Under the pieces are notes generated by a model that ran no database searches, was not told the origin of the DNA, and saw nothing but the letters and a program-made list of their open reading frames with translations. From Limisphaerales bacterium (GTDB taxonomy: Bacteria; Verrucomicrobiota; Verrucomicrobiia; Limisphaerales; UBA1100): DNA of 33,684 nt. The position numbers and the translations under genes are program-made. The stretch covers positions 1 through 33,684 of the forward strand of contig JACNJL010000065.1 of the NCBI GenBank assembly GCA_014382585.1, in the 5' to 3' direction. This document shows, one piece after another, positions 2,981-29,295 of this stretch; within the stretch, counting starts at the first letter, position 1; each line of letters opens with the position of its first letter.

Positions 2981-2986
2981 AGGGAA

Positions 2987-3016
2987 AATATCCAGTGTCC
3001 AAGGCAAAATGTCCAA
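2987..3016 (-). promoter_or_regulatory. Putative leaderless promoter of DUF1501 copy 1
   Basis: Reading the minus strand, TTGGAC (3011-3016) is followed after 18 bp by GATATT (2987-2992), which ends 6 bp before the ATG at 2980. The -10 box is a weaker match than in the other examples. There is no Shine-Dalgarno sequence. Confidence 0.35.
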
Positions 3017-4646: not shown

Positions 4647-6050
4647 TCAACTTACTTCCGACAGCGGTTTATAACTGGGATCCACCAAATAGTGAGGGCG
4701 ACCTTGGAGGTCGGTGATGGTGGCGGTATCGAGATTGATGCCGAGGTTATTGTAGAGTGTGGCGAATACTTCCTGGACGTGCACGGGACGGCCGTTAGCT
4801 TCGCCGCCGTCCTTGGTTGTGCTGCCGATGACTTGGCCCGTGCGCATACCGCCGCCGGCGAGGAGGGCGGGGGCGACGTTCGGCCAATGATCGCGGCCGC
4901 CTTTTTCATTGATCTTCGGTGTGCGGCCAAACTCACCCCACACGACGACGGTGACGTCCTGATCCAAACCGCGCTCGTGAAGGTCGGTGACGAGGGTGGC
5001 CAGCGCGTGGTCGAAGTCGGGTAAATCCCACTCGGCGAGTTGCTTGAGTGTGCCGCCGCGATTGGCGTGCCAATCCCATGCGCCGAAGGCAACGGTGACG
5101 CAGCGCGCACCGGCTTCCACCAAGCGTCGCGCGAGCAGGAGTTGCTGCGGATTCTTCGCCGCGCCGCCAAAGCTCTCGGTGGTCGGCTTGGAAATTCCGT
5201 AGCGCGCGATGGTTTTTGGATTTTCATTTTTCAAATCCAATGCCCGCGCGAGGCGGCTGCTGTTCAAAATGGAAAATGCCTGTTCGCGAAAGGGATCTGC
5301 GTCCGCCTCGCTGCGGGCATCGGCTGCACGGCGAAAATCATCGAAACCGGTCAGCAAACCCTTGCGGTCTTCAAGGCGCTTGACGGTGATGTTGTTGAGC
5401 ATCAAATCGCTTTTACCCTGTCCGTAAAGGCGGAAGGGCGTGTGGCGTTGGCCGGTGAAGCCCGGCCAGGAAATGGGCCCGGGGGGATCGTGAAGGCCGG
5501 CCACGTTGTAAGGTTTATGGCGCATCTGCGGGCCGGCGTCGATGTACGATGGCAGGTTGTTCGGGCCGGGGCCTTGGAGGCGGCTGACCACCGAGCCGAG
5601 TGTGGGCCAGCCGCCGGCGGGTTCGTTGTCCGTGGGTTTGCCGCCGGGTCGCCCGCTGTAGCATTGGAACGATTCATGGCGATTTTTCAAACCGACCAGC
5701 GAGCGGATGATGATCAGCTTGTCCATCGCCTTGGCCAGCTTGGGCAGCAGTTCACAGATGTGGACGCCGGGCACTTTGGTGCGGATAGGTTTGAAACAAC
5801 TGCGGATATCCGATGAGGCACCCGTTTTCAAATCAAACGTATCGTGATGCGTCGGGCCGCCGGGGAGGTAAACCATGATCACGGCCTTGTGGCCGAGCCG
5901 GTTTTTTGATTTCGGCGCGGCTTTCTCGGCAGCGAGGAGTTGCGGCAGCGACAACCCGCCCATCGCCATCCCGCCGATTTGCAGAAATGACCGGCGCGAA
6001 TGTCCATCGCAAAACCGTGGTCCCGTCTGACTGCTGATGAAATTCAGCAT
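4647..6050 (-). CDS. DUF1501 Tat-exported protein (copy 2)
   Basis: This 467-residue protein has a Tat signal (SRRSFLQIGGMAMGGLSLPQ at about residues 18-37). It carries the DUF1501 blocks VYLPGGPTHHDTFDLK, PGVHICELLPKLAK, LLARRLVEAGARCVTVAFG, WGEFGRTPKINEKGGRDHWP and LLAGGGMRTGQVIG. The GRDHW block is shared by the alkaline-phosphatase-like clan, but the reaction is unknown. It is an orphan copy: there is no DUF1549/DUF1553 partner, and its upstream neighbour is the dimethylformamidase-like gene 72 bp away. A good promoter-like pair 6 bp before the ATG suggests it can be transcribed independently and supports the start. Confidence 0.88.
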   Translation of the reverse strand: MLNFISSQTGPRFCDGHSRRSFLQIGGMAMGGLSLPQLLAAEKAAPKSKNRLGHKAVIMVYLPGGPTHHDTFDLKTGASSDIRSCFKPIRTKVPGVHICELLPKLAKAMDKLIIIRSLVGLKNRHESFQCYSGRPGGKPTDNEPAGGWPTLGSVVSRLQGPGPNNLPSYIDAGPQMRHKPYNVAGLHDPPGPISWPGFTGQRHTPFRLYGQGKSDLMLNNITVKRLEDRKGLLTGFDDFRRAADARSEADADPFREQAFSILNSSRLARALDLKNENPKTIARYGISKPTTESFGGAAKNPQQLLLARRLVEAGARCVTVAFGAWDWHANRGGTLKQLAEWDLPDFDHALATLVTDLHERGLDQDVTVVVWGEFGRTPKINEKGGRDHWPNVAPALLAGGGMRTGQVIGSTTKDGGEANGRPVHVQEVFATLYNNLGINLDTATITDLQGRPHYLVDPSYKPLSEVS

Positions 6051-6122: not shown

Positions 6123-7604
6123 TCATTCCAAAGTTTTTTTGAACAAATTGTGTGTGATTTGTTGAATGCGTTGATCAACTCCATGCGGTCGGCTGAAGTG
6201 GCTCCACGGGAGCATATGGCCGGGGGGAGCAGCGAGGGCTTGGGCCCACCAGATGGTGGCGGCGTTAAAGATGATATTTTTTTTCGGCCCGGGAAAAATG
6301 GTGGCGGTCCAATGGGCGGGGGTGGTGCCGCCGCGCCAGACCGTGCCCTCGGCGACGACCTCGAGGCCGGGTATTTTGGCGGGCGCGCCGTGGTGTTCCC
6401 ATCCCACAAGGCCGGGGATGGAGTCGCCTTTTTTCATTCCGGTGTTTTGGAAAATCCAGTGCTTGGGTTTGGTGCACGTCCAGTCGCCGCCGCCGTTGAA
6501 AGGCACGATGCTGCGGGCTCCGATGAGGTCGCTTTCGTCCGGGCCTCGGCGGCGCCAGTCTTGGGTGAACACGCCGATGGCGGCGTTGATTTCCTCGTCG
6601 GTGAGGCCACTGTAAATTCCATCGCGGGTGATGATGCGTTTGTCGTGACTGAACGGGCTGACACCGAAAACGGAATTGCCGCAAAGCCACATCACGTTTG
6701 TTCCATCGGCAATGGCTTTTTTAACCGCATGATATTGTCGGACATCCCAGTATTCATCGTGGCCGACAGAAAGAAAAGTGTTGCTGCGGGTGATTTGCGC
6801 GGCATCAAGGCAGTCGCTGTTGGAACAGTAGCTGACGTCATAGCCGTGTTTTTCCATCCAATAGGCAAGCGGGAATTCCCACAGCAGAAATTCACCGGAG
6901 CCATTGGAGAGCGGGCGCTCAAAAATCTGCGAGTACTTTGCGTACGGCCGGTCGAAGCTCACTGATACGTCGACTGCATGCGCGCCGCGCGGGTCGGTGT
7001 ACAGACTGTGGTTGTCGGGCCATTTGTTGTACGCCTGCCACGTGTTGTCGCTGCATTGGAAAAGGAAATCAGCGGGGCGCTCATCGCGCACGATGAAAAT
7101 GACATAGCTTTGCCAGTACGGTTTATTGGTTGCTTCGGGCACGGTGGTGAGGCGGCCGAGATAAATTCCGCTTGGCCAGTCATTGGGGATTTTAATCGTC
7201 GCCGCCGGTTCCCATTTGCATTGGCGCAGTCGCTGTTCGCCCACCGGCGGGATGGGCTGCGGCTTGCCCTTGAGTGGGCCGAGAGTTTTCATCAGGCGCG
7301 CGCCGCGTCCGCCGTAGTAGCCCATCCGAAATAGTTCCAGCGTGAACTGCGCCGCCGGCTCGGTGCTCACCATGACGTCGAGCGTCTCGCCGGCCTTCAC
7401 GGATTGCCGTGAGCAGTAGCCCTCGATGGCCGGGGTGCGATAACCGACGGGCCGCACGCGTGTGAGCTGCCAATCCCGCGTCCCGGGGCGGGCATTTTCT
7501 TTTTGGATTAAATCCGGCTGTCGCGCGGGCGCGGCTCGGGCGAGTTTGGAAGTGGCGATTGCTGCGGCAGAGGTTTTCAAAAAATCACGGCGCGATGGGC
7601 TCAT
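6123..7604 (-). CDS. N,N-dimethylformamidase beta-subunit-like Tat protein
   Basis: The 493-residue product begins MSPSRRDFLKTSAAAIATS, a clear Tat signal. The body resembles the large subunit of N,N-dimethylformamidase: an N-terminal sandwich (VKAGETLDVMVSTEPAAQFT, LFRMGYYGGRGARLM, WPSGIYLGRL), then FQCSDNTWQAYNKWPDNHSLY, FLSVGHDEYWD and VMWLCGNSVFG. Characterised DMFase uses a mononuclear iron held by Tyr and Glu side chains. I did not verify those residues here. PVC relatives are common and uncharacterised, so a C-N hydrolase on an exported substrate is only a family-level guess. I chose the ATG at 7604 over an in-frame start at 7709 because of the Tat motif and the promoter position. Confidence 0.82.
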   Translation of the reverse strand: MSPSRRDFLKTSAAAIATSKLARAAPARQPDLIQKENARPGTRDWQLTRVRPVGYRTPAIEGYCSRQSVKAGETLDVMVSTEPAAQFTLELFRMGYYGGRGARLMKTLGPLKGKPQPIPPVGEQRLRQCKWEPAATIKIPNDWPSGIYLGRLTTVPEATNKPYWQSYVIFIVRDERPADFLFQCSDNTWQAYNKWPDNHSLYTDPRGAHAVDVSVSFDRPYAKYSQIFERPLSNGSGEFLLWEFPLAYWMEKHGYDVSYCSNSDCLDAAQITRSNTFLSVGHDEYWDVRQYHAVKKAIADGTNVMWLCGNSVFGVSPFSHDKRIITRDGIYSGLTDEEINAAIGVFTQDWRRRGPDESDLIGARSIVPFNGGGDWTCTKPKHWIFQNTGMKKGDSIPGLVGWEHHGAPAKIPGLEVVAEGTVWRGGTTPAHWTATIFPGPKKNIIFNAATIWWAQALAAPPGHMLPWSHFSRPHGVDQRIQQITHNLFKKTLE

Positions 7605-7610
7605 GAGCCA

Positions 7611-7638
7611 ACGGTACGAGATTCGCCTTGGCTCACAA
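7611..7638 (-). promoter_or_regulatory. Putative leaderless promoter of the DMFase-like gene
   Basis: On the minus strand TTGTGA (7633-7638), a 16 bp spacer and TACCGT (7611-7616) lie 6 bp before the ATG at 7604. Its -35 touches the -35 of the divergent plus-strand candidate. The whole divergent gap is only 60 bp. Confidence 0.42.
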
Positions 7639-7657
7639 TCAAAATATGCGATGCTGT
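7628..7657 (+). promoter_or_regulatory. Putative promoter of the UbiA-like gene
   Basis: TTGGCT (7628-7633), an 18 bp spacer and TGCTGT (7652-7657) end 7 bp before the ATG at 7665. The -10 is poor (TG instead of TA). The spacing matches the other leaderless candidates in the window. Confidence 0.28.
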
Positions 7658-7664
7658 TCGGCCG

Positions 7665-8537
7665 ATGAAACCGGCACTGTCCGCAATTGCCCTGCCCGAA
7701 ACGCAACATCGTTCGTGGTGGCTGTGGCCCAATCTCCTGAGCCTTGATGCGCCGGTGGTGGCCTTGGTGTGGCAGGAGGCGTTCGCGGCCGGGTTGGCGG
7801 TGGATCTGGGTTGGACACAGCGCGCGTTGTTGGCGGTGTGCGTGTGGCTGGCGTATTGCGGGGATCGCTTGCTGGACGCCCGGCGGCTACCGGAAGGGGC
7901 GGTAGATTCTCCGCGGCACGCATTTGCGCGCGATCATTCAACGGCGTTGACGGTTGCGTGGTGCGTGGGCTTGGCGTTGGCGACAGTGTTGGCGTTGCAA
8001 ATGTCCGCGCGCGAAATGTTGGTGGGCGCTGGCTTGCTCACGGTGTTGGGCGGATATTTTTTGTTGCATCATGTGCGAGCCTCCCGCGAGCGGGCGGGGC
8101 GGTGGAAGGAACTGATGGCGGGTGTGTGCTTCGCCGCGGGCACGCTTTTTTTTGTGGTACTGAATTTGCAAATTGCTGTGCCCGTTGTTTGGGGTTCGTT
8201 TGTGTTGGCGGCGCTGGCTTGGGGTGGTTTGTGTGTGATAAATTGCTTGGTGATCGCCGGTTGGGATCGTGAAAGTGATGCTGCGATGAAGCAGCCTTCG
8301 CTGGCGCGACGATGGGCGGGGATGGAACGTGCATTGCCGATGATGGCGTTGGGTTTGGTGGGGATGATTCTTGGCGCGACGGTGCTGGACGATCGGTGGG
8401 TGCCTTTGGCGCTGGCCTTGGCGGCGAGCGCGTTGGCGTTGCTGGAATTGGCGCGCCGCCCGAATGGGGGTTCGGCCGAAGCCCGGCGCGTGTGGGCAGA
8501 TGCGGTTTTGCTGACGCCGTTGCTGGTACTGGTTTGA
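7665..8537 (+). CDS. UbiA-like integral membrane prenyltransferase homologue
   Basis: The 290-residue protein has about seven to nine hydrophobic helices. Two aspartate motifs are placed as in the UbiA superfamily: D67-R-L-L-D71 after an early helix, and W200-D-R-E-S-D205 after a later one, with a K148-E149 pair between them. UbiA enzymes transfer isoprenoid chains to aromatic or other acceptors in the membrane, using Asp-rich motifs to bind Mg-diphosphate. The motifs here are shorter than the canonical NDxxDxxxD, so the assignment is tentative and the substrate unknown. The next gene, a SAM methyltransferase, starts 2 bp after the stop, which suggests translational coupling and a two-step modification of a lipid or quinone. 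Confidence 0.6.
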   Translation: MKPALSAIALPETQHRSWWLWPNLLSLDAPVVALVWQEAFAAGLAVDLGWTQRALLAVCVWLAYCGDRLLDARRLPEGAVDSPRHAFARDHSTALTVAWCVGLALATVLALQMSAREMLVGAGLLTVLGGYFLLHHVRASRERAGRWKELMAGVCFAAGTLFFVVLNLQIAVPVVWGSFVLAALAWGGLCVINCLVIAGWDRESDAAMKQPSLARRWAGMERALPMMALGLVGMILGATVLDDRWVPLALALAASALALLELARRPNGGSAEARRVWADAVLLTPLLVLV

Positions 8538-10984: not shown

Positions 10985-12772
10985 GTGAAGCAGATCATAC
11001 TATTTCTCTCCATTTTCCTTTGCGGATTAACACAGGCAAAGCCGCCCAATATCGTTGTCATTCTCACGGATGATCAGGGTTGGGGGGATCTCAGTCTGAA
11101 TGGCAACACGGATCTGGCGACGCCGCATATTGATTCGCTGGCGCGGGATGGGGCGCGGTTTGATCGTTTCTTTGTCTGTGCGGTGTGTTCGCCCACGCGC
11201 GCGGAATTTCTCACCGGCCGCTATCATGTGCGCAGTGGCGTGTACAGCACCTCGGCCGGTGGTGAGCGCATGGATCTCGATGAGCTCACTATTGCCGATA
11301 CGTTCAAGGCAGGCGGTTACGCCACGGGCGCTTTCGGCAAATGGCACAACGGCATGCAGTATCCGTATCATCCGAATGGGCGCGGGTTTGAGGAGTACTA
11401 CGGCTTTTGCTCCGGCCATTGGGGCGATTATTTCAGTCCGCCGCTGGAGCACAATGGCCGCATTGTACAGGGCAAAGGTTTTTGCATCGACGATTTTACC
11501 AACCAAGCCATGGCGTTCATAGAGCGCAGTCATCAGTCGGGCAAACCGTTCTTTGCCTATCTGCCCTACAACACGCCACATTCGCCCATGCAGGTGCCGG
11601 ACCGGTGGTGGAACAAGTTTAAGGATAAAGACATTAAATTGCACAACCGCGATCCGCGTCGGGAAAACCTGCCGCACTTGCGGTGTGCCTTGGCGATGTG
11701 CGAGAACATCGATTGGAACGTCGGCCGTCTGTTGAAGAAGCTCGATCAACTGGGCGTGGCCAATGACACGATCGTGATGTTCTTTCATGACAACGGCCCG
11801 AACGGCGTGCGCTGGAACGGCGGCATGAAAGGCCGTAAAGGCTCGACGGACGAAGGCGGCGTGCGCTCGCCGCTTTTGGTGCGTTGGCCGGCACGAGTGA
11901 AGGCGGGCACATTTGTGAAGCCGATCGCCTCGGTGATGGATGTGTTACCCACCTTGGCGGATTGCGCGGGTGTTTCGGTAGCCAGCAAAAAGCCCCTGGA
12001 TGGCCGTAGTCTCAAGCCTTTGCTGCTCGGGCAAAAGGCGGTTTGGAAAGACCGCACGATCATCAATCATTGGAGGGGCAAGGTGAGTGCGCGCACACAG
12101 CGGTATCGGCTCGATCATCAGGGTAAACTCTTTGACATGGTGACGGATCCGGGGCAGGGCAAAGACATTAGCGCCGCGCAGCCCAAAGTGACAGAGGATT
12201 TGCGCAAGAAAGTGGCGCACTGGAAGGAGGCCGTGTTGGCCGAACTGGGCGAAGACACACGGCCATTTGTGATTGCGCATCCGGATTACTTATGGACACA
12301 GATCCCGGCCCGCGACGGCACCGCTCATGGCGGCATCAAGCGTTCCAATAAATTTCCCAATTGTTCGTACTTTTCCAATTGGACCTCGAAGGACGACGAG
12401 ATCACTTGGCCGGTCGAAGTAGCTGCCAGCGGTCGTTATGCGGTGACGCTCCACTACGCTGTGCCGAAGGGCGACGAGGGCGCGCGGATGCAGTTATCTT
12501 ACGGCATGAGTTTTAAAACGCCGGACGGAAAAATGAAGGGGTACGGCAGTGCAGTGGGGGTGACACTATTTAAGCCGCATGATGTGCCGGTGCGCGGCCA
12601 CGAAAATGATCGCGTGCAACGCATGGAATCCTACGTGAAAGATTTTAAACCGATCGAAATGGGCACCCTCAACCTGAAGAAAGGCCAGGGCACTCTCACG
12701 CTCAAGGCTCTGGAAATTCCAGGCAAAACGGCGCTGGAATTTAGGTTGCTCATGCTGCGCCGGATAAAATGA
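10985..12772 (+). CDS. Secreted formylglycine-dependent sulfatase
   Basis: This 595-residue protein has a signal peptide ([15 protein letters not shown]) and the sulfatase signature. D29/D30 in LTDDQGWGD are metal ligands. C68-S-P-T-R72 carries the Cys converted to formylglycine. FGKWH (K119, H121) follows, then H199 in YNTPHSP and FFHDNGPNG with a lysine in GGMKGRKG. After the catalytic domain, residues from about 430 form an extra beta-rich region ([29 protein letters not shown]) that resembles a carbohydrate-binding sandwich. Substrate is most likely a sulfated polysaccharide. No formylglycine-generating enzyme is encoded in the window. Translation starts at GTG 10985. The gene has no convincing promoter and may be read from the pseudopilin gene 42 bp upstream. 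Confidence 0.93.
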
Positions 12773-12852: not shown

Positions 12853-15800
12853 ATGAAAATTGCGATTTGCACTCTATTACTGTTGGCCGGTCCGCTGTTG
12901 GCGGGCACCCCGGAGGCGATGATGTTGCTGAAAGCAAATTGTTTTGCCTGCCATAATCCGGACAAGGAAAAGGGCGGGCTGGATCTCACCACGCGCGCGG
13001 GATTGTTGCGCGGCAGCGATGAGGGCAAGGCGATTATCCCCGGCAAGGCCCCGGCTAGTCGGCTCATTCAAGTCATCCAAACCGGCTCGGATCCGCATAT
13101 GCCGCCAAAGGGGCAACTGACTCCGCGGGCGATTGGCATGCTGGAGGATTGGGTGAATGCCGGCGCACCGTGGAACGCCGCTGCGTTAAAAGATAAACCG
13201 CGGCCGGCTCCCGCGAAGCTTGGCACATTACCCCCCGGTTACACCCCGGCGCTGGCCGTGGCATTGGCCCCGGACGGGAAACGACTGGCGCTGGCGCGGG
13301 CCAACACGATTTTCATTCACGATTTGACGGCCAAAAACAAACACATTGCCACGCTCACCGGCCATCGCGATGCGGTGCAGTCGCTAACGTGGAGTGCCGA
13401 TGGCAAATGGCTGGCCAGCGGGGGCTATCGTTCGGTGCGTTTATGGAATACGGAGTGGGAACTCGCACGCGAGTTGACCGGCTTTGCCGGTCGCGTCACG
13501 GCAATTGTTTTTTCACCGGACAACACGTCCCTCTTCACGGCGGACGACGGGCACGTGCGAAGGTGGTCGGTTGCCGATGGCAAATCGACCGGCCATTGGC
13601 AGGCACACCAAGATACGGTTTACGGACTTGCACTGAGCCGGGATGGAAAACAAATCGCCACCGCCAGTGCGGATGAAACGGCGAAGGTGTGGAGTATCGC
13701 GGACCAAAACGCGACGGCCACGCTGGAGGGGCATCACGGCGCGGTGTACGCGGTGGCGTTTAAGAGCGACGGCAAGCAATTGGCCACGGGCAGCGCAGAT
13801 CACGAAATGTTGGTTTGGGATTTGCAGTCAAAGCAAAAGCTGACAGAAGTTCGCAACCACAAGGGCGGCGTGACGGCGCTGCGCTGGACACCCGACGACA
13901 AGGCGCTGGTGACTGCATGCGAGGATGGCCTTGTACGAATTTTTACAGACATCAAACCGCACGATGGCGCGCAACGCTCAGGCACGGCAAAGGAACGCAA
14001 ACTTACTGGCGCAAGTGGGCGGCTGCACAGCGTTGCCAGCTCGACTGACGCCAAGAGGGTCATCGCCGGCAACCACGCGGGCGACGTGTTCATTTGGCAA
14101 GACAATCGCCTCACCGCCACGCTCAAGGCGGAAGCTGCGATTAAACCGAACGGCAAAATTAGTTTCATCAAGGACGTGCTACCGATTCTCAGCAAGGCCG
14201 GCTGCAGCGCGGGCTCATGCCACGCCAAGGCGGGAGGGCAACACGGGTTCCAACTCTCGGTGTTTGCGTACGACACTCATAAGGACTGGCGCGAAATCAC
14301 GGCCGATGCCCACGGGCGCCGCGTGTTTCCAGCCTTCCCTTCGGAAAGTCTCATCGTAAAAAAAGCCACGCTCGCCATGCCGCACGAGGGTGGTCAGCGC
14401 ATCAAACCCGGCTCAAATTCCGATCGCGTGCTGCAGCAATGGATCCGTGAAGGCATGGCGTATCAACACGAAGGCGAACCGCAGCTCACGCGCCTGTCCG
14501 TGGAACCGGCCGCGCGCATTTATCGGTTGGGGCAAACACAACACTTGAAAGTCACCGCGCATTTTTCAAATGGCAGCCGCCGCGACGTGACGGCGTTATC
14601 AAAGTTTGTTTCCAATGACACCGAGATGGCCGCCGTGGACGAGGCTGGGCGTGTGACCGTGGGCCGCATGAATGGCGAAGGCACGCTGGTGGTGCGCTAC
14701 ATGGGGCAGGTTGCCATCGCGCGCGTGACAGTGCCGGCGGCCAGGAAAATTTCGGCTGAAAAATACGCCGCGCTGCCGGCAATTAATTTTATTGATGAAC
14801 TGGCCTACGCGCAGTTTCAGCGGCTCGGGCTGTTGCCTAGCGAGTTGTGTTCGGACGCGGAATTTCTCCGGCGCGCTTCGCTGGATACCATTGGCCGGCT
14901 GCCGACGGTCGAGGAAGCGCGCACATTTCTTGACGACAAAACCAAGTCGCCCGCCAAGCGGCGCGCGCTCATCGAGCGGTTGCTGAAGCATCCCGCGTAT
15001 GGCGATTATTGGGCGAATAAATGGGCGGACCTTGTGCGCCCCAACCCGGATCGTGCTGGGCTCAAGAGCGTGTACGTGCTCGACCAATGGTTGCGCGAGG
15101 CGTTCCGTGCCAATCAACCGATGGATCAATTTGCGCGCGCGATGATCATGGCCAGCGGCAGCACGCATCGATTCGGGCCGGCTGTCGTTTATCGCGACAA
15201 GCGGACGCCTGAAGAGATGGCCAAAATTTTCAGTCAGGCTTTTCTCGGTACGCGGCTGGAGTGCGCGCGCTGCCACAATCATCCCAACGAACAATGGACA
15301 CAGTCGGATTTCTATTCGCTTGCCGCCTTTTTTGCACAGGTGAAGCGCAAGGGGTCGGGCGTGTCGCCGCCTATTTCCGGCGGCACGGAATTTTTTTATC
15401 ACGGGGGCAGCGGCAGCGTGAATCATCCGGTTACCGGCAAAACCCTTGCGCCCAAGCCGCCTGCCGGTCCGCTTGCCCAGATTGCCATTGGTGCGGATCC
15501 GCGCGCGGCGTTGGTTGATTGGATCGTAGAGCCGGACAATCCATTTTTCGCGCGTGCAATGGTGAACCGAGTGTGGAGTGTTTATTTCGGACGCGGCTTG
15601 GTGAATCCGGTGGATGACCTTCGTGCTTCCAATCCCGCGATGAACGCCGCGTTGCTTGATGCGTTGGCAACCCATTTTGTCAGAATTAAATTCGATCAAA
15701 AGGCACTCATTCGCACCGTGATGCAAAGTCGTTTGTACCAACTCAGCCACACTCCGAATGAATCCAATACCGCGGACACGCGGAATTTTTCGCGGATGTA

Positions 15801-16290
15801 TTTGCGCCGTCTTCGCGCCGAGGTGCTAATGGACGTTATTAATGACGTGACCGGCGTGCCATCGAGCTTCGGCGCCACGTGGCCGGGCGCGCGGGCGATT
15901 GAGACGTGGAATTTCAAAATCAGCAGCGAATTTCTGGACGCCTTTGGTCGGCCCAACTCCAGCAGCGATCCCCCCTGCGAACGCAACACTTCAGGCACCA
16001 TCGTCCAAGCGCTGCATCTGATGCACGGTGACGGGGTGCAGAAAAAAATCACCCACGCCCAAGGCCGCGCCCGTCGCCTCGCCGACAGCAAGAAGACCGT
16101 TACCGAGATTGCGGATGAAGTATACCTCGCAGCCTTGAGTCGCCGTCCCACCAAAAAAGAAACGGATCTCGTCAAAAAATTTTACCAAGGCCACAAGGTT
16201 GATGAAGATGATGAAACTAATCGCCGATCCGCCACCGAGGATTTCATCTGGGCGATCATCAACTCAGCAGAATTTGTGTTTAACCATTAA
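12853..16290 (+). CDS. PSCyt1-WD40-Ig-DUF1549-DUF1553 fusion protein
   Basis: This is a 1145-residue exported protein. The signal peptide is at 1-18. A planctomycete-type cytochrome C domain (PSCyt1) carries C30-F-A-C-H34, with HMPPKG near 82-87. WD40 repeats run from about 130 to 425 (for example LTGHRDAVQSLTWSADGKWLASG and LEGHHGAVYAVAFKSDGKQLATGSADH). A second cysteine-histidine motif is C451-SAGS-C456-H457. A bacterial Ig-like segment spans about 543-628. DUF1549 (PSCyt2) spans about 643-835 and contains C804-A-R-C-H808. DUF1553 (PSD1) runs from about 880 to the end. Haem binding is expected only for the CxxCH sites and is unproven. A short AGGA lies 2 nt before the ATG at 12853. It is followed by DUF1501 and PPC genes, its usual PVC partners. 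Function unknown; an envelope electron-transfer or polysaccharide-processing role is a guess. Confidence 0.92.
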   Translation: MKIAICTLLLLAGPLLAGTPEAMMLLKANCFACHNPDKEKGGLDLTTRAGLLRGSDEGKAIIPGKAPASRLIQVIQTGSDPHMPPKGQLTPRAIGMLEDWVNAGAPWNAAALKDKPRPAPAKLGTLPPGYTPALAVALAPDGKRLALARANTIFIHDLTAKNKHIATLTGHRDAVQSLTWSADGKWLASGGYRSVRLWNTEWELARELTGFAGRVTAIVFSPDNTSLFTADDGHVRRWSVADGKSTGHWQAHQDTVYGLALSRDGKQIATASADETAKVWSIADQNATATLEGHHGAVYAVAFKSDGKQLATGSADHEMLVWDLQSKQKLTEVRNHKGGVTALRWTPDDKALVTACEDGLVRIFTDIKPHDGAQRSGTAKERKLTGASGRLHSVASSTDAKRVIAGNHAGDVFIWQDNRLTATLKAEAAIKPNGKISFIKDVLPILSKAGCSAGSCHAKAGGQHGFQLSVFAYDTHKDWREITADAHGRRVFPAFPSESLIVKKATLAMPHEGGQRIKPGSNSDRVLQQWIREGMAYQHEGEPQLTRLSVEPAARIYRLGQTQHLKVTAHFSNGSRRDVTALSKFVSNDTEMAAVDEAGRVTVGRMNGEGTLVVRYMGQVAIARVTVPAARKISAEKYAALPAINFIDELAYAQFQRLGLLPSELCSDAEFLRRASLDTIGRLPTVEEARTFLDDKTKSPAKRRALIERLLKHPAYGDYWANKWADLVRPNPDRAGLKSVYVLDQWLREAFRANQPMDQFARAMIMASGSTHRFGPAVVYRDKRTPEEMAKIFSQAFLGTRLECARCHNHPNEQWTQSDFYSLAAFFAQVKRKGSGVSPPISGGTEFFYHGGSGSVNHPVTGKTLAPKPPAGPLAQIAIGADPRAALVDWIVEPDNPFFARAMVNRVWSVYFGRGLVNPVDDLRASNPAMNAALLDALATHFVRIKFDQKALIRTVMQSRLYQLSHTPNESNTADTRNFSRMYLRRLRAEVLMDVINDVTGVPSSFGATWPGARAIETWNFKISSEFLDAFGRPNSSSDPPCERNTSGTIVQALHLMHGDGVQKKITHAQGRARRLADSKKTVTEIADEVYLAALSRRPTKKETDLVKKFYQGHKVDEDDETNRRSATEDFIWAIINSAEFVFNH

Positions 16291-16380: not shown

Positions 16381-17697
16381 ATGAACAGCAGAAAATACAA
16401 CTGTGCCGGAATGGGGCGTCGGGACTTTTTGCAGGTGGGCTTGGGTGGGATGATGGGCCTGGGGCTGGCGGATTTATTACGGGCACGGGAGGCTCAGGCG
16501 GGAAAGAAGATTAATTGCATCCTCGTTTGGCTCGATGGCGGGCCGTCACATTATGAAACATTTGATCCGAAGCCGGATGCGCCCAAAGAGATTCGCGGCG
16601 AATTTGGCGCGATGAAGACAAACGTGCCGGGGGTGAATTTTTGCGACAAGGTGCCGCACTTGGCGAAAGTGGCGGATAAAGTGACGATCGTGCGGTCAAT
16701 CTGGCATAAGGATCCGAACCACGGCGGCGGCAATCACTATATGATGACCGGTCGACCGACGCCGGTGCCGGTGAATTGTGGCGCGTTCGTGACGTTTCAT
16801 CCGTCATTCGGATCAATGACCAGTTACGAGCGCGGCGTGATCAAAGGGTTGCCGCCTTATATGAGCCTCGGCCGGATGACCCGTTCGGGCGGCCCGAATT
16901 TTCTGGGTGCGGAGCACGCGCCGTTTGTGATTAAGGCGGATCCCAACAGCACAAGTTTTAAGGTTCGCGACGTGGTGTTGCCGCAGGGAATCAGCGAAAG
17001 CCGCGCGGAGAATCGGCAGGTCTTGCGTCGTGAACTGGATAGTCTGTTGCGCATCACCGATAAGGTAGCGAAGGATCCAGCGGTGAGTTTCGACCGCTTC
17101 AACGCGCAGGGCGTTGATCTGATTACCTCCACCGCCGCGCAGAAGGCGTTTGATATTTCAAAGGAAGACGACAAAGTCCGCGACGCTTACGGTCGCAACT
17201 CACTCGGCCAACGAATGTTACTAGCGCGGCGCTTGACGGAGGTGGGCGTGTCGTTTGTCACGGTTTATTATGGCGGTTGGGATCATCACACCGATATTTT
17301 CAAAACGCTCAACGGCAAGTTCATGACCAGTTGGGATCAGGGCCTCGCGGCATTAATCAATGACCTCGATGTGCGCGGGCAATTAGACGACACGATGGTC
17401 GTTTGCCTCGGTGAATTTGGCCGGACGCCCAAAGTGAACAAGCGCGGCGGGCGCGATCACTGGCCCGGCGCGATGAGCGTGCTATTGGCCGGGGCGGGGA
17501 TTCCGCGCGGGCAAATCGTCGGAGCCACCGATGCGAAGGGCTACTATGCCTCCGAAAATGTTTACACGCCGGAAGATTTTGCCGCGTCGCTGTACCGCAA
17601 GTTAGGCATCGATCCGCATCAGGTGCTGCACACCGCCACCGGCCGGCCAGTGCAGTTGGTGGACGGCGGTTCGCGCATCAAGGAACTCTTCGCGTGA
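16381..17697 (+). CDS. DUF1501 Tat-exported protein (copy 3)
   Basis: The 438-residue protein has a Tat signal (GRRDFLQVGLGGMMGLGLADL at about residues 12-32). The DUF1501 blocks are ILVWLDGGPSHYETFDPKPD, VPGVNFCDKVPHLAKVADKV, NHGGGNHYMMTG, MLLARRLTEVGVSFVTVYYGGWDHH, CLGEFGRTPKVNKRGGRDHWPG and VLLAGAGIPRGQIVGATD. This is the canonical genomic setting for the family, directly downstream (90 bp) of a DUF1549/DUF1553 gene and overlapping a PPC gene. The stop shares one base with the next start (TGATG), so the two are translationally coupled. It lacks the small insertions seen in copies 1 and 2. The reaction is unknown. Confidence 0.92.
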   Translation: MNSRKYNCAGMGRRDFLQVGLGGMMGLGLADLLRAREAQAGKKINCILVWLDGGPSHYETFDPKPDAPKEIRGEFGAMKTNVPGVNFCDKVPHLAKVADKVTIVRSIWHKDPNHGGGNHYMMTGRPTPVPVNCGAFVTFHPSFGSMTSYERGVIKGLPPYMSLGRMTRSGGPNFLGAEHAPFVIKADPNSTSFKVRDVVLPQGISESRAENRQVLRRELDSLLRITDKVAKDPAVSFDRFNAQGVDLITSTAAQKAFDISKEDDKVRDAYGRNSLGQRMLLARRLTEVGVSFVTVYYGGWDHHTDIFKTLNGKFMTSWDQGLAALINDLDVRGQLDDTMVVCLGEFGRTPKVNKRGGRDHWPGAMSVLLAGAGIPRGQIVGATDAKGYYASENVYTPEDFAASLYRKLGIDPHQVLHTATGRPVQLVDGGSRIKELFA

Positions 17698-19364
17698 TGA
17701 TCCGCGCTGGCATTGCGGCAATCCTATTTTCACTCACGGCAGCCGCCGCGCCGCCGCAGGTGGATTGGCTCTTTCCCATCGGTGCCCAGCGCGGCAGCGA
17801 GGCGCTCGCGCAAATTGGCGGCAAATTTCAATGGCCCTTAAAAACCTGGGCGGACGATCCCGGAATTGCGATCACAGCCGATGCGAAGAAAAAAGGGTTC
17901 TTCAAAATCACCGTCGCCAAAGGCGTCACGCCCGGGCCGCATCTCGTGCGTTTTTTTGACAGCAACGGCACTGCGCCGCCGCGCGTTTTTTTTGTGGGCA
18001 AAGTGCCCGACGTGCCGGAGAAAGAGCCGAACAACGAAATGCTCTCGCCGCAGGCGGTGGACGTGCTGCCCGCGGTTATCCACGGTAAACTGCAGAGCAG
18101 TGGCGATGTGGATAGCTACCGCGTCAAACTCAAGGCTGGCCAATTTTTTATTGCACAGCTCGATGCCTATACCGCCGGTATTTCGATGGACGCATTGATG
18201 ATGCTGCGCGACGCGCGCGGTACGAAGCTCGCTTTCAATCATGACGCGCATTCGCTCGATCCGCGTCTCGTGTGGCAGTGCGATCGCGATGGCGAATATG
18301 TGTTGCAAGTCGCCGCGTTCAAATTTCCCGCCAACAGCACCTCGAGCTTCAGCGGCGGCGCAAATCATGTTTACCGCCTCACCCTCACCAACGGTCCGTG
18401 GGTGCGCCATGGATGGCCGCACGGGGCGACGGCTGGTACGGCTGGCAACATCGAGCTGGCGGGTTGGAACTTGAACAAGAAATCCATCACCTTCGCCAAG
18501 CAAACGGTTGACGAAACCGTGCTGCCGGTGACGGCGGCGAACGGGCCGTTGCGTTTGCCGGTGACGCCGTGGTCGCAAATTGCCGAGCGCGAGCCGAATG
18601 ACACCAACGTGACCGCGCACACCTTCAGTTTGCCCGCGACGGTTTCCGGCCGCATTGATAAGCCCGGTGACGTCGATCGTTTTACCTTCACCGCCAAGAA
18701 AGGCGCGCGCTATCGGCTGGACATCGATTCGTTTACGCTCGGTTTCCTGTTGGACGCGCGGTTGTCGGTCGAGGATGCCGACGGTAAAGAACTCACCACC
18801 AACGACGACGCCAATAAAATCCGCGACCCGCTGCTCAATTGGACCGCCCCCGCGGACGGTCGTTTCTTCGCGGTCGTTCGCAGTCTGTTGCACAAAGGCG
18901 GCGGCGAATATTTTTACACGCTGAAAATTCATCAACCGCAGCCAACCTTTAGTGCCACCGTTGCTGCGCCGCATTTTAGTGTGAACGCTGCCGCCACGAA
19001 TGAGGTGAAAGTGACGGTCAATTTTCTTGATGGCTACAAAGGTAAACTCACCGTCGCCGCAAAAAATTTACCCAAAGGCGTCAGCGCCGCACCGGTGGTG
19101 CTCGAAAAGAACGACACCGCCATCCTCAAACTCATTGCGACTAACGACGCCCAACCCCACAACGGACCGATGGCCATTATGATTTCTGCTGAAGACAAAA
19201 ACGTTCGGCCCGCCACCTGCGCCCTCACCAGCGCGAGCGTCAACAACGGCGTCCCACAGGGGTTTCCGGAATTCATCATCCCAACGACCGCACACCTTTG
19301 GCTTACTGTGCTTCCGCCCAAGTTGGTTGCTCCGAAGAAATCGGAATCCTCCGATCCCAAATGA
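17697..19364 (+). CDS. Exported protein with two pre-peptidase C-terminal (PPC) domains
   Basis: This is a 555-residue protein from the ATG at 17697 (TGATG overlap with the DUF1501 stop). It has a signal peptide ending in TAAAAP. Two PPC beta-sandwich domains each begin with the family's E-P-N motif: EKEPNNEM near residue 110 and EREPNDTN near residue 299. Each continues with a G-DVD-x-Y/F pattern (SGDVDSYRVKLKAGQ, PGDVDRFTFTAKKGARY). The C-terminal part (about 420-540) looks like another Ig-like domain. There is no catalytic motif. PPC domains usually act as extracellular folding, secretion or binding modules. Position behind PSCyt/DUF1501 is typical in PVC genomes and suggests a joint surface complex. 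Confidence 0.87.
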   Translation: MIRAGIAAILFSLTAAAAPPQVDWLFPIGAQRGSEALAQIGGKFQWPLKTWADDPGIAITADAKKKGFFKITVAKGVTPGPHLVRFFDSNGTAPPRVFFVGKVPDVPEKEPNNEMLSPQAVDVLPAVIHGKLQSSGDVDSYRVKLKAGQFFIAQLDAYTAGISMDALMMLRDARGTKLAFNHDAHSLDPRLVWQCDRDGEYVLQVAAFKFPANSTSSFSGGANHVYRLTLTNGPWVRHGWPHGATAGTAGNIELAGWNLNKKSITFAKQTVDETVLPVTAANGPLRLPVTPWSQIAEREPNDTNVTAHTFSLPATVSGRIDKPGDVDRFTFTAKKGARYRLDIDSFTLGFLLDARLSVEDADGKELTTNDDANKIRDPLLNWTAPADGRFFAVVRSLLHKGGGEYFYTLKIHQPQPTFSATVAAPHFSVNAAATNEVKVTVNFLDGYKGKLTVAAKNLPKGVSAAPVVLEKNDTAILKLIATNDAQPHNGPMAIMISAEDKNVRPATCALTSASVNNGVPQGFPEFIIPTTAHLWLTVLPPKLVAPKKSESSDPK

Positions 19365-19500
19365 TTGGGACGTATAAGGTGACAAACGGTCGCAGCTCCG
19401 GCGATTGGTCTTTTGAAATTGGCTGCCCGATTGTCTAATCCGTATTCACTTGAGCTTGCCGAATTTGTTCCGCGCCCACACAATCTCGCGAAGACCATTT

Positions 19501-21771
19501 ATGATGATTCGAATCTCATTTTTTTTAACCTCACTCATTGCTCTCAACGTCTTTGCCGGTAAATGGGATGAGATGAATTACGGGCCGTATCTGTCCACCT
19601 CGCTGGAGGTGCCGAACGCGGGGATTGTCAACAAGGGCATCGCCATTCGGCTCGATGGAGGCGAGGGCGGTGTTTCCAAAGGCGGCGCGTTTATGTTGTA
19701 CGATACGGATTTGATGAACTGCGCGGCGGGTTGGACCGGCGGATTTATTGATTGGCGCGGCATCGCTTTTGACGGCCGCCATAACGCTCACGCTTCCATC
19801 ACCGGCACACAGGCGTTTACCAATCCTGTCGGTCCCGGCTGGCGCGGCGGCAAGGGCCAGTGGATCGATGCCGTGCGTGTGAAGGGGCTCGATCAAAAAC
19901 CGTATGGACCGCTCCCACGCGATTGGGCGCATTACAAGGGTTTGTATGTGAACAGAAACCGGGTGGTACTTTCGTACACCGTTGGTGCGCGCGGCGTATT
20001 TGAGTCGCCCTCGCTACACGGCAATGATGTGTTCATTCGAAACCTGCACGTGGCGCCGGGCCCGAGCCAAATCGTAATGCAAGTGGCGCGTGGCGAAAGT
20101 GGTGCGATGCATTTGGCCGACAATAAGGATTTTGTTTTTGTGAAAACCCCGAAGGACACGATTGTCTGCGCGGCGGTGTTGGGCGGTTCGGGGTTGTGGG
20201 ATTTGAGCGATGGCAAAAATCTTCGGCTCCGCATTCCAGCGGCGAACCAGGCGCTGAAATTGCAGGTAATTCTCTGGCGCGGCCAACAGGGAAAGCTTGA
20301 AGGATTTAAGAAGGCCGTTGCCGCTGTGAAAAAGGCCGGTGCGCCACCCAATCTTTTAGCACTGGCGCGCGGTGGTTCGGCGAAATGGAAGCAAACGGTG
20401 GAAACAAAAATTCAGCCGGGCTTGGCAACGGGGCCGTTTGCCACGGATACTTTTGAATTGCCGGAGAATAATCCGTGGAAGTCGTGGATGCGGTTGGGTG
20501 GGTTTGATTTTTTTAAGGACAATAAGCGGGCGGCGGTGTGCACTTGGCAGGGGGATGTTTGGATGGTCAGCGGGCTCGATCAGCCGAAGGGCAAGCTGAC
20601 TTGGCGGCGGGTGGCGGCGGGGATGTTCCAGCCGCTCGGGCTGAAGATTGTTGATGAAACAATTTATGTTTGTTGCCGTGACCAGATCACGCGCCTGCAC
20701 GATTTGAATGGCGATGGCGAAATGGATTTTTACGAGAGCTTCAATAATGACCATCAAGTGACCGAGCATTTCCACGAGTTCGCGATGGATTTGCAAACGG
20801 ATGCGGCGGGCAATTTTTATTTTGCCAAGGCCGCGCGTCACGCGAAGAGCGGGCTGGTGCCGCATCACGGTTCCATTATCAAGGTGAGCAAGGACGGCTC
20901 CAAGAGCTGGCGCATCGCCAACGGGTTCCGCGCGCCCAATGGCGTGACGGTGAATGGCGACGGCACATTTTTCGCCAGCGACCAGGAAGGCCACTGGACG
21001 CCGAAGAACCGCATCAACCTTGTCCGCAAGGATGGCTTTTACGGCTACATGGGTTCGTACGTGCCCGGGCGCGACCCCTCGAAATACGACCCGCCGGTGG
21101 TGTGGATTCACAACAGTGTTGATCGCTCACCCGCGCAGCAGCTTTGGGTGACCAGCGATAAGTGGGGGCCGCTGAAAGGTTCGCTCATCAATTTCAGCTA
21201 CGGCACGGGTCGGATTTTTGTTGTGCCGCACGAGGTATTGGGCGGCATCCCGCAGGGTGGCGTGGCGCGATTGCCCATTGCCGAAACTCCCACCGGCGTG
21301 ATGCGCGGCCGCTTTCATCCCGTCGACGGCCAGCTTTATGCGTGTGGTCTTTTCGGCTGGGCGGGTAACAAACATTTGGCCGGTGGGTTTTATCGATTCC
21401 GTTACACTGGCAAACCGCTGCACGTGCCGATCAATTATTCTGTCAGCAAAGATGGAGTGCGTCTGGTCTTCAGTGAACCGCTTGATCTGGAAGCCGCAGG
21501 CGACGTCGACAGATTTTCCGCTGAGATGTGCAACTACCGTCGCACCGCCGGCTATGGTTCGCGCGATTATCTCGTGACTGATCCCAAAAAGCAGGGCCGC
21601 GACAAACTGGAAATCACCAAAGCCATCCTCGGGGCGGATCGCAAATCGGTGCTCCTTCAAATGCCCAAGCTGCAGAAGTGCATGACGCTGCGCATCCAGT
21701 ACAATCTCAAAGGCGCTAAGGGTGAAACCGTGAAATCCGAAATCAACTGCACGGTAAACGTGCTGAAATAG
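19501..21771 (+). CDS. Exported DUF6797-type beta-propeller protein without cytochrome domain
   Basis: The 756-residue protein has a signal peptide (MMIRISFFLTSLIALNVFAG). The N-terminal region (KWDEMNYGPYLSTSLEVP, GGVSKGGAFMLYDTDLMNCAAGW) matches what I know as DUF6797. The middle is a glucose/sorbosone-dehydrogenase-like propeller (AAVCTWQGDVWMVSGLD, IYVCCRDQITRLHDLNGDGEMDFYE, IANGFRAPNGVTVNGDGTFFASDQEG). The C-terminal part is an Ig-like region (INYSVSKDGVRLVFSEPL). PVC relatives often end in a CxxCH cytochrome domain. I found no CxxCH anywhere here. The ATG at 19501 (followed by a second ATG) is preferred to an in-frame start at 19450. It lies 136 bp after the PPC gene without a clear promoter and converges with trhO 2 bp away. 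Confidence 0.8.
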   Translation: MMIRISFFLTSLIALNVFAGKWDEMNYGPYLSTSLEVPNAGIVNKGIAIRLDGGEGGVSKGGAFMLYDTDLMNCAAGWTGGFIDWRGIAFDGRHNAHASITGTQAFTNPVGPGWRGGKGQWIDAVRVKGLDQKPYGPLPRDWAHYKGLYVNRNRVVLSYTVGARGVFESPSLHGNDVFIRNLHVAPGPSQIVMQVARGESGAMHLADNKDFVFVKTPKDTIVCAAVLGGSGLWDLSDGKNLRLRIPAANQALKLQVILWRGQQGKLEGFKKAVAAVKKAGAPPNLLALARGGSAKWKQTVETKIQPGLATGPFATDTFELPENNPWKSWMRLGGFDFFKDNKRAAVCTWQGDVWMVSGLDQPKGKLTWRRVAAGMFQPLGLKIVDETIYVCCRDQITRLHDLNGDGEMDFYESFNNDHQVTEHFHEFAMDLQTDAAGNFYFAKAARHAKSGLVPHHGSIIKVSKDGSKSWRIANGFRAPNGVTVNGDGTFFASDQEGHWTPKNRINLVRKDGFYGYMGSYVPGRDPSKYDPPVVWIHNSVDRSPAQQLWVTSDKWGPLKGSLINFSYGTGRIFVVPHEVLGGIPQGGVARLPIAETPTGVMRGRFHPVDGQLYACGLFGWAGNKHLAGGFYRFRYTGKPLHVPINYSVSKDGVRLVFSEPLDLEAAGDVDRFSAEMCNYRRTAGYGSRDYLVTDPKKQGRDKLEITKAILGADRKSVLLQMPKLQKCMTLRIQYNLKGAKGETVKSEINCTVNVLK

Positions 21772-26026: not shown

Positions 26027-29000
26027 TCAGATTGCGGCGTTGGCGGGTTCCGTTGTGCGGCCGGTTTGCCAATCCCAGTATCGGCGGCAGGCGGCTTTGA
26101 TGTCTTCCAAAATAAGGTAGCAAATGGGTACGAGGATGAGGGTGATGAAGGTGGCGAAGAATACGCCCCAGGCGAGGCTGATGCCCATGGGGATGACGAA
26201 TTGTGCCTGCGTGCTTTTCTCGAACATGGTGGGCAGGATGCCGCCGAAGGTGGTGAGGCTGGTCAGGATAATGGGCCGGAAGCGCGCGCCGCCGGCGTTA
26301 CGGACGGCCTCAAGCATAGGTAGACCCTCGCTGCGTTTGCGGTTGATGTAGTGCACCATCACCAGGCTGTCGTTGACGACCACGCCGGCCATTGCGAGCA
26401 GGCCAAAGGCGCTCATAATGCTGAAGGTGGCGCCCATGATCATATGGCCGAGCAGTGCGCCGGTGATGCTGAAGGGAATGATGGCCATCACGATGAACGG
26501 TTGCGTGTAGCTTTTAAACGGAATGGCGAGCATCGCGTAGATGCCGAGCAGGACAATGATGCCGCCGATGCGCAGAGCGGAAAAGGACTCAGCGCGTTCG
26601 CGGCTTTCGCCATCGAAGCTATAGCTCATGCCGGGATGAGCTTCCACCAAAGCGGCGACTTTGGGTTCGAGATCCTGCCGGACTTTTTCGAGGTCCAAGG
26701 TGGGGTCATACTTATCGGCATCAGCCACCACGGTGAGCGTGCGGGCGAGGTCGGTGCGGCGGATGGAGGGAAAGCTCTCGTTCATTTCCAATTCGGCCAC
26801 TGCGGTGAGCGGCATTGAGGAGCCGTCGGTGGAGAGGATGTGCATGTTTTCCAGGCTGGCAAACGCTTTGCGTTCGGCGAGCGGGTAGCGCACCATCACG
26901 CGCACTTCATTTTGTCCGCGCTGAATGCGTTGCGCTTCGTGCCCGAAAAAGCCTCCCTGTACCTGCCGTCCAACCGTTGCGCGGGTGAGTCCGCGTTGGA
27001 GGGCGTCCGGGCGGAGGATGGGGCGGACTTCTTCTTTGGTGCGTTCAAAGGTGTCGTGAATGTCGAACAGGCCGGTGTAGGTATTCAGCTCGGCTTGAAT
27101 TTTACCGGAGACTTGGCTGAGCAAGGCGGTGGTTTTGAGCGAGGTATCCTGCGCGGGCAAGGCGAGCTGGATGGCAATGGGATCGCGCGTGCGGCCGATG
27201 ACCGCGCGGGTGGTCACTTCCTGCGCGCCCTCGATGAGGCCGATATTTTTACGCCATTCCGTGGCAAGATCGCGAGTCTTGAGATCCAGATAGCTGGCGT
27301 CGTGAAAATGAATACGATCTTCCGGAGCCATGATTTGCAGTTGTACTTCGCCGAGATGGGCCACGCCAGATTCGGCGCGGCCGCGCACGCCGGCAATATT
27401 TTGGCCGCCGATGGTGGTGATAATGTTGCCGATGAGGCTGCGCCGGATTGTTTGGCCAGTTTCGGGGTCGTCAAAGTCGGCGGTGTATTTTGCCTTCAAC
27501 CGGTCGGCTTCGGAAATCATCACCTTGAGTTTTTCGGCGGTGACTTCGTACGCGGTGCCCTGCGGCATCACCAGCCGGGTGGTGGCGATCTCCGCATCGA
27601 TCGGCGGGAAGAATACCATTTGCAATCGACCACTGAAACTGTAAGCGCCAATCACCACCGCCGCGCCAATGAATACGCAAAGAGTGACGTAGCGATGCAC
27701 CGAGGCGTGCGAAAGGATGGGCCGATAGATATGATCAATACACCACTCGAGGCCGTCGGCACACCATCGTTGTGCGCGCGCCAGCGGATTGAGCGTGCTG
27801 CGTTTGGGTTTGCCGGTGGAAAGACGACTGAGGTGTGCGGGCAAAATCAGTTTGGATTCAACCAATGAAAAAATGAGACAGGGAATCACCACTAACGGAA
27901 TTTGCGCGAAAATCTGGCCGCGTCGCCCCTCCACCATCAGTAGGGGCACAAAGGCGATGGCGGTGGTGAGCACGCCAAAGATCACCGGCACGGCGACTTC
28001 CTGCGTGCCCTTGATGGCGCCAATCAATGCCGTGCCACCGCGTTGTTGATGGGTGTGGATGCAATCACCGGTGACGATGGCGTCATCCACTAAAATGCCC
28101 AGCACGAGGATGAACCCGTACAGCGTAAAAAGATTAATGGTGACGCCCACGTACGGCATCATCGCAAAGGCTCCCATGAAGGCGACGGGTACGCCTACGC
28201 AAACCCACAACGCCACCGCCGGACGCAGGAATAATCCCAGCAGCACGATGATGAATGCGATGCCCATCAACGCTGAGTCATTGAGCGTGACGAGGCGTTT
28301 TTTGATGATGTCGGCGCGGTTGTTCCATACGTCGATGGATACGCCCTCGGGCAACTGCGGGATGAGGCGGGCGAGGTATTCGTTGACGATGTGCTCGATC
28401 TTCAGCGCGTTTTGATCGCCCGTGCGCGCCACGTGCACCACCGCGCAACGACGCCCGTTGAAGCGCATCAACACGCGATTTTCTTCGAACGCATCGGTTA
28501 CGTTGGCCAGCTCGCCGAGTGTGAGATGCGAACCGTCCTCGCGCGATTGCACAATAATTTTTTCAAACGCCGCCTTGTCAAACGCGCGGCCCTCGGTGCG
28601 TACCAGCACCTCGCCGTTGCGGCTGCGGATGACACCGCCGGGAATGTCCACCGCCGAGTTGCGCACCGCATCGGCCACGGTTTGCAGGGTAAGCCGATGT
28701 TCGCGCAGCACCTGTTCAGGAATCTCAATGCCCACCTCGTAGTTGCGCAGGCCGCGCATCACCACGCGTGAAATGCCTTCCAGCCGACCCGCTTCATCGC
28801 GCACGCGCTCGCCGAGCTGATGGAGGTCGTGCTCGCTCATATCGCCGTGGATGATGAGCGTCATCACCTCATGCAGGTGTTCCTCCAGCTTGACCTCCGG
28901 GGGCTCGATGCCTTCGGGCAAATTGTTGACCGCATCGACGCGGCTCTTCAATTCGTCCCGCAACTCCCGCGGATCGTGCCCGCTTGCGACTTCCACCTCA

Positions 29001-29278: not shown

Positions 29279-29295
29279 GGCCGTTTCGTTTTGTC

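Follow-up and report, generated by a model that had tools for sequence, protein, structure and literature searches.

We analysed a stretch of 33,684 nucleotides from a Limisphaerales bacterium (the window) and found that the gene at positions 12853-16290 (+) encodes one protein in which a signal peptide, a PSCyt1 domain and a WD40 propeller are joined to a cytochrome-like CX4CH segment, an immunoglobulin (Ig)-like domain, PSCyt2 (DUF1549) and PSD1 (DUF1553). It is another member of the large, described PSCyt family of Planctomycetes and Verrucomicrobia. In the reading that we prefer, held tentatively and with somewhat less than even confidence, the protein may be an exported three-haem c-type redox protein, a subunit of a cassette centred on a DUF1501 gene, that arose by fusion of a PSCyt1-WD40 gene with a downstream cytochrome-Ig-PSCyt2-PSD1 gene. 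An earlier note on this DNA had described the same chain of domains and taken it for an exported scaffold with up to three haem-like sites that works with DUF1501 and PPC proteins; the observation is confirmed by the open reading frame, Pfam, the motif scan and the predicted structure, and the interpretation is partly supported.

The open reading frame begins with ATG and runs through 1145 amino acids with no internal stop. All four Pfam families score above their gathering cut-offs, with 58.6 bits against 22 for PSCyt1 (PF07635, residues 30-87, positions 12940-13113), 146.9 against 27 for WD40 (PF00400), 151.9 against 29.8 for PSCyt2 (PF07583, residues 647-831, positions 14791-15345) and 143.2 against 28.5 for PSD1 (PF07587, residues 884-1111, positions 15502-16185). 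The window protein thus has all three families of the PSCyt1/PSCyt2-PSD1 proteins above the curated cut-offs and differs from these proteins in that PSCyt1-WD40 is joined to CX4CH-Ig-PSCyt2-PSD1. The N-terminus reads as a Sec-type signal peptide without a lipobox (about residues 1-18, positions 12853-12906; boundary approximate). The AlphaFold2 model, built with 38 sequences (mean predicted local distance difference test score 86, predicted TM-score 0.72), contains a propeller, a helical CX4CH segment, a β-sandwich at about residues 545-627 and a helical PSCyt2-PSD1 part. The WD40 propeller is seven-bladed (about residues 135-424, positions 13255-14124) and matched the seven-bladed designed propeller 7bie with a TM-score of 0.93 by target length in Foldseek, where WD40 propellers filled the whole-chain output. 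The best structural matches of the β-sandwich were bacterial Ig domains, in agreement with an Ig-like domain of the Big_2 type at about residues 544-628 (positions 14482-14736).

For the comparison with relatives we used 32 regions from related genomes and 80 loci on named contigs, the latter being the best 80 of 587 relatives; examples of what the 32 regions do not include are orthologues located on short contigs and one that is broken in two (G002, G006, G013, G016). The tree and alignment comprise 104 rows, namely these 112 loci less two without the CX4CH segment and seven near-copies, plus the window. The motif scan found only three haem-type motifs in the window protein, CxxCH at residues 30 and 804 and CX4CH at 451, and the cysteines of this protein are at positions 6, 30, 33, 356, 451, 456, 666, 804, 807 and 1042. 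In PSCyt1 the residues C30, C33, H34, H82, M83, P84 and P85 are invariant in all 52 aligned rows, and this CxxCH (30-34) with the conserved Met83 of the HMPP string is the class I cytochrome c pattern. In the cytochrome-like segment (about residues 431-540, positions 14143-14472; motif 451-457), C451, C456 and H457 are kept in 103 of 104 rows, the remaining row being gapped, and His511 is kept in every row. Two residues ahead of His511 the window protein has Met and most other rows have V, I or L; His511 is therefore the better candidate for the distal ligand of the CX4CH site. The CxxCHxH motif of PSCyt2 (804-810) retains C804, C807, H808 and H810 in 104/104 rows. Of the 68 Verrucomicrobiota rows, 66 have His772; in the 36 Planctomycetota rows W or F mostly takes its place, and it is hence not a general ligand. 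Because the motifs are conserved across the aligned rows they are far beyond chance. Moreover, the genome encodes proteins for cytochrome c assembly: PF01578 matches twice, and a ResB match lies close to the first of these. Since the motifs and candidate ligands are near-invariant and the assembly genes are present, covalent haem is likely in the window protein, and the proposal of up to three haem sites gains support from the same evidence, as does that of export from the signal-peptide-like N-terminus.

The second line of evidence concerns the gene boundary. Among the 104 rows, 38 (window counted) have the PSCyt1-WD40 piece fused to the remainder of the chain and 15 have it as a separate gene immediately upstream in the same orientation; in two it lies downstream, and in 37 it is absent from the visible sequence. 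The other 12 rows end at a contig edge before the upstream gene becomes visible and could not be judged. All fused and adjacent cases are Verrucomicrobiota, and no Planctomycetota row (36 rows, seven of them cut short) had the piece fused or adjacent upstream. The earlier remark that many family members lack WD40 was right. The tree requires at least six changes in the fused label and 11 in the three states taken together. A genome of the window's own genus (G001) carries two genes: its PSCyt1-WD40 gene ends in ATLK-stop, the TGA and the ATG of the following gene share bases (ATGA), and this second gene opens with a lipoprotein-like signal followed by a Big_2 domain ahead of the cytochrome part. 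Exactly as far as ATLK, the window protein and the G001 protein share 64% identity; the window protein then continues directly with the cytochrome part, which places the fusion junction at positions 14122-14145. The next outer relative (L058) is split as well, and the simplest account of these sequences is therefore that the genes became fused in the window lineage when the stop codon, the export signal of the second gene and its Big_2 domain were lost. The split within the genus, the ATGA overlap and a stop exactly where the window runs on make it very likely that both halves function as a single unit. Neighbouring genes that fuse repeatedly very probably encode interacting products, and a functional tie between the WD40 half and the rest, fused or adjacent, is much better supported than it was from the window alone.

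In the split pairs the second gene bears its own export signal, which is lipobox-like in 6 of 15 distinct adjacent loci, the signal peptides having been called with a crude hydrophobicity window and judged by eye. The second gene of L052 and of L068 does begin with Big_2. Twelve fused proteins have long linkers of 139-171 amino acids; a second Ig domain was considered for these, and the one stretch examined (L059) gave no Pfam match. One locus (L105, 4830-10100, +) has an open frame of 1757 amino acids with about 500 residues ahead of PSCyt1.

The third line of evidence is the neighbourhood. In the window the DUF1501 gene (16381-17697, +), whose product has a twin-arginine start, adjoins the PSCyt2-PSD1 gene and is followed by a PPC-domain gene (17694-19364, +). 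The two neighbours had been described as coupled downstream: this holds for DUF1501 and PPC, since the PPC start (GTG at 17694) overlaps the DUF1501 end at 17697, but not for the fusion gene and DUF1501, which are separated by about 90 bases without overlap. Among loci with enough sequence, 36 of 56 Verrucomicrobiota and 20 of 24 Planctomycetota have a DUF1501 gene of the same orientation within 1.2 kb downstream, and DUF1501 and PPC both follow in 31 of 50 and 15 of 22 loci, respectively. The DUF1501 protein shows distant similarity to sulfatases: profile comparison of the window's DUF1501 gave a sulfatase-like match at P 4e-6 (reversed control 0.18), and searches of DUF1501 against PDB sequences yielded weak matches only, sulfatases among them at E 0.26-0.35. 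In 29 aligned DUF1501 rows a His follows shortly after an invariant Gly (GGP-S/T-H in most), and W-D-x-H, E-x-G-R-x-P and R-x-H are kept. A sulfatase gene with the CSPTR motif (10985-12772, +) lies directly upstream of the fusion gene in the window's genus and in the sister genus. Next in order after PPC in the window's family is a DUF6797 gene (19450-21771, +), identified by Pfam and locus comparison, with a propeller region resembling gluconolactonases and PVC (Planctomycetes-Verrucomicrobia-Chlamydiae) haem proteins; in the sister genus the fusion-adjoining DUF6797 protein of one locus (L057, 4999-7983, -) bears a carbohydrate-binding-type Laminin_G_3 domain.

The protein is probably a three-haem electron carrier or enzyme. 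The PSCyt2-PSD1 part would most likely hold the catalytic or substrate-facing site. Electrons might pass from the haem of the PSCyt2 CxxCH to that of CX4CH (His457/His511) and on to the Met-ligated PSCyt1 haem, which would serve as the exit to a soluble carrier, and the propeller and the Ig domain could act as rigid connectors or docking faces. The partners would be the DUF1501 protein, which is sulfatase/phosphatase-like and probably a hydrolase, and the PPC protein, near the sulfatase, and the putative complex may act on extracellular or periplasmic carbohydrate.

Several findings weigh against this reading. The candidate distal ligand of the third haem, His772, is replaced by W or F in most Planctomycetota, and the surroundings of CX4CH were of low confidence in a shorter structure model. 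The core does not require WD40, which Planctomycetota loci lack. DUF1501 is not nearby in 20 of the 56 Verrucomicrobiota loci, and in the sister genus (L053-L057) the order is sulfatase, fusion, DUF6797 with no DUF1501 or PPC between. The suggestion that the protein works with DUF1501 and PPC is thus borne out by a gene order conserved in two phyla, and weakened by an association that is not universal and by a sister genus without both; DUF1501 would be a usual but not a necessary neighbour, or be supplied from another locus. Finally, phmmer against PDB and Foldseek found no solved structure for the PSCyt2-PSD1 part, where the phmmer matches fell mainly in the Ig region and almost all Foldseek rows, among the matches listed, were the Ig domain; the other parts were barely probed structurally, and we therefore make no claim of a new fold.

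An unlikely, though by no means negligible, alternative is a structural scaffold with few or no haems, in which the Cys/His motifs would bind a different metal or form disulfides, while DUF1501/sulfatase activity would be positioned on the cell surface or in the envelope by the propeller and the Ig domain. Domains of the propeller, Ig-like and PPC kinds typically serve in binding, a CHxHP string whose second His (His810) never varies is odd for a simple CxxCH haem site, and the split partner carries a lipobox in several species. However, the class I cytochrome c pattern of PSCyt1, with its HMPP Met in 52/52 rows, and the cytochrome c assembly genes of the genome speak for haem and for the redox protein that we prefer.

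Another alternative, which we regard as distinctly less probable than the scaffold, starts from the PSD1 domain. Here the protein would be a remote variant of the DUF1800-DUF1501 pair (PF08811, PF07394). PSD1 would be related to DUF1800, and PVC bacteria would have added the haem parts later to an older exported machine that lacked haem and either acts on extracellular polysaccharide or helps to assemble it. In five orthologues of the window protein the PF08811 model matched the PSD1 end (E 2e-5 to 4e-4), and profile comparison of 130 PSCyt2-PSD1 with 25 DUF1800 sequences gave P 2e-6 and a probability of 89.5 over 59 columns (reversed control 0.26). Searches with hidden Markov models matched in both directions. 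In relatives, DUF1501 comes next after 28 of the 30 DUF1800 genes examined, and PSCyt2-PSD1 genes likewise stand before DUF1501; none of the 25 DUF1800 rows contains CxxCH. Outside PVC bacteria, the DUF1800-DUF1501 pair is reported from bacterial chitin synthase operons (PMC5122149). On the other side, the strong homology spans only about 60 columns, a second collinear match near the C-terminus being weaker, and the PSCyt2 half showed no such relation to DUF1800 (P 0.15; reversed control 0.087), the N-terminal half being not alignable. In addition, the window protein itself has no PF08811 match at E<=0.001 and is thus no DUF1800 member, and the single DUF1800 protein scanned carries no other Pfam domain. 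Control comparisons of PSCyt2-PSD1 with DUF1501 and of DUF1501 with DUF1800 gave no match. A shared HPNE string was discarded as a sign of homology and put down to chance, as no more than 12 of the 25 DUF1800 rows have it. We read PSD1 as a true but distant homologue of part of DUF1800, namely its C-terminal part, and not as a family member. A wider proposal, possible but rather doubtful, is that PSCyt2-PSD1/DUF1501 cassettes are the haem-bearing PVC branch of an ancient exported DUF1800-DUF1501 two-protein machine, which in PVC bacteria would have gained three c-type haems and, in the Verrucomicrobiota among them, an electron exit carried by the propeller that repeatedly fused to or separated from the core.

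It is quite improbable that the protein is a haem-based sensor or regulator of an envelope process, with haems that sense redox state or a gas and a propeller that relays the signal to partners. The many paralogues in the 3.7-Mb genome (51 PSD1, 68 PSCyt1 and 75 DUF1501 matches, beside 61 of WD40) could mean many inputs, and one study links a PSCyt2-PSD1 gene of R. baltica to a stress-induced extracytoplasmic function (ECF) sigma factor (PMC2754498), but the chain has no Pfam signalling output domain and its strongest neighbours are hydrolase-like exported proteins. That two genes were misread as one through an assembly or annotation artefact, as the two genes of G001 might suggest, is hardly credible given that the frame is open through the junction and that the same fusion occurs in L051, a close relative with 93% identity over the C-terminal part, in the sister genus and in 38/104 rows overall.

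The composition of the redox protein that we favour recalls quinohaemoprotein amine dehydrogenase (1jmx, 1jju), which combines c-type haems, Ig-like domains and a seven-bladed propeller in one periplasmic enzyme. The likeness is limited to such a works-like composition: the window Ig domain matched 1jmx_A with Z 9.1 and a root mean square deviation of 2.0 over 84 residues, but the Ig fold alone matches, as it does with many unrelated proteins, and we make no family claim. Membership was rejected, the β-subunit model TIGR03907 giving E 0.014 and 14.5 bits against a cut-off of 223.2.

The PSCyt1, PSCyt2 and PSD1 domains were reportedly named by Studholme in 2004, and a DUF1501 module of PVC bacteria is said to have been treated by Kamneva in 2012. 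According to He et al. 2017 (PMC5615132), some PSCyt genes carry WD40 and Big_2 domains, many are located near sulfatases, two unknown gene families adjoin them, and nothing is known of what they do; a figure of that paper may already depict the joined architecture. The DUF1501 module of PVC bacteria is mentioned in two further papers (PMC4452313, PMC4960237) and resembles the present one in having a cassette around a DUF1501 gene with exported products. Another paper (PMC5587647) notes DUF1501 neighbours of WD40 genes in Planctomycetes. The open-access literature searched bears out the statement that no function is established; neither the repeated fusion nor the DUF1800 link was found there in print, and no paper covered both DUF1553 and DUF1800. 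The family is greatly expanded in Planctomycetes and Verrucomicrobia; the fusion and neighbour pattern names an interacting partner and offers a single-chain expression construct. Furthermore, if the DUF1800 link is true, genetics in tractable DUF1800-DUF1501 bacteria would inform the whole group.

Within the window's own genome, 10 of 14 WD40-repeat frames have a PSD1 match no more than 3 kb away (the window itself included), a range that covers 8.6% of the genome. Among the approximately 49 PSD1 frames, such a WD40 frame is found within 3 kb of 9 of the 16 low-scoring and 2 of the 33 high-scoring ones, so that WD40 is mainly a property of one subtype; the regions of six of the 16 low-scoring frames were opened. 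The same genome contains one DUF1800 gene, and two DUF1501 matches come after it (G000:C13:4053-8759).

Elsewhere in the window, two more DUF1501 genes on the other strand (1595-3016 and 4650-6050, both -) are 37-38% identical to the one at 16381, and this pair adjoins a gene without a Pfam match (76-1566) and a gene for a DMFA2_C protein exported by the twin-arginine pathway (6126-7709). Beside the cassette lies a gene of the 3-keto-disaccharide hydrolase family (PF06439; 22715-23689, -), for which a link of sugar oxidation to haem proteins is possible. An RND efflux set (AcrB-type, HlyD-type and OEP; 26030-32216, -) is apparently unrelated.

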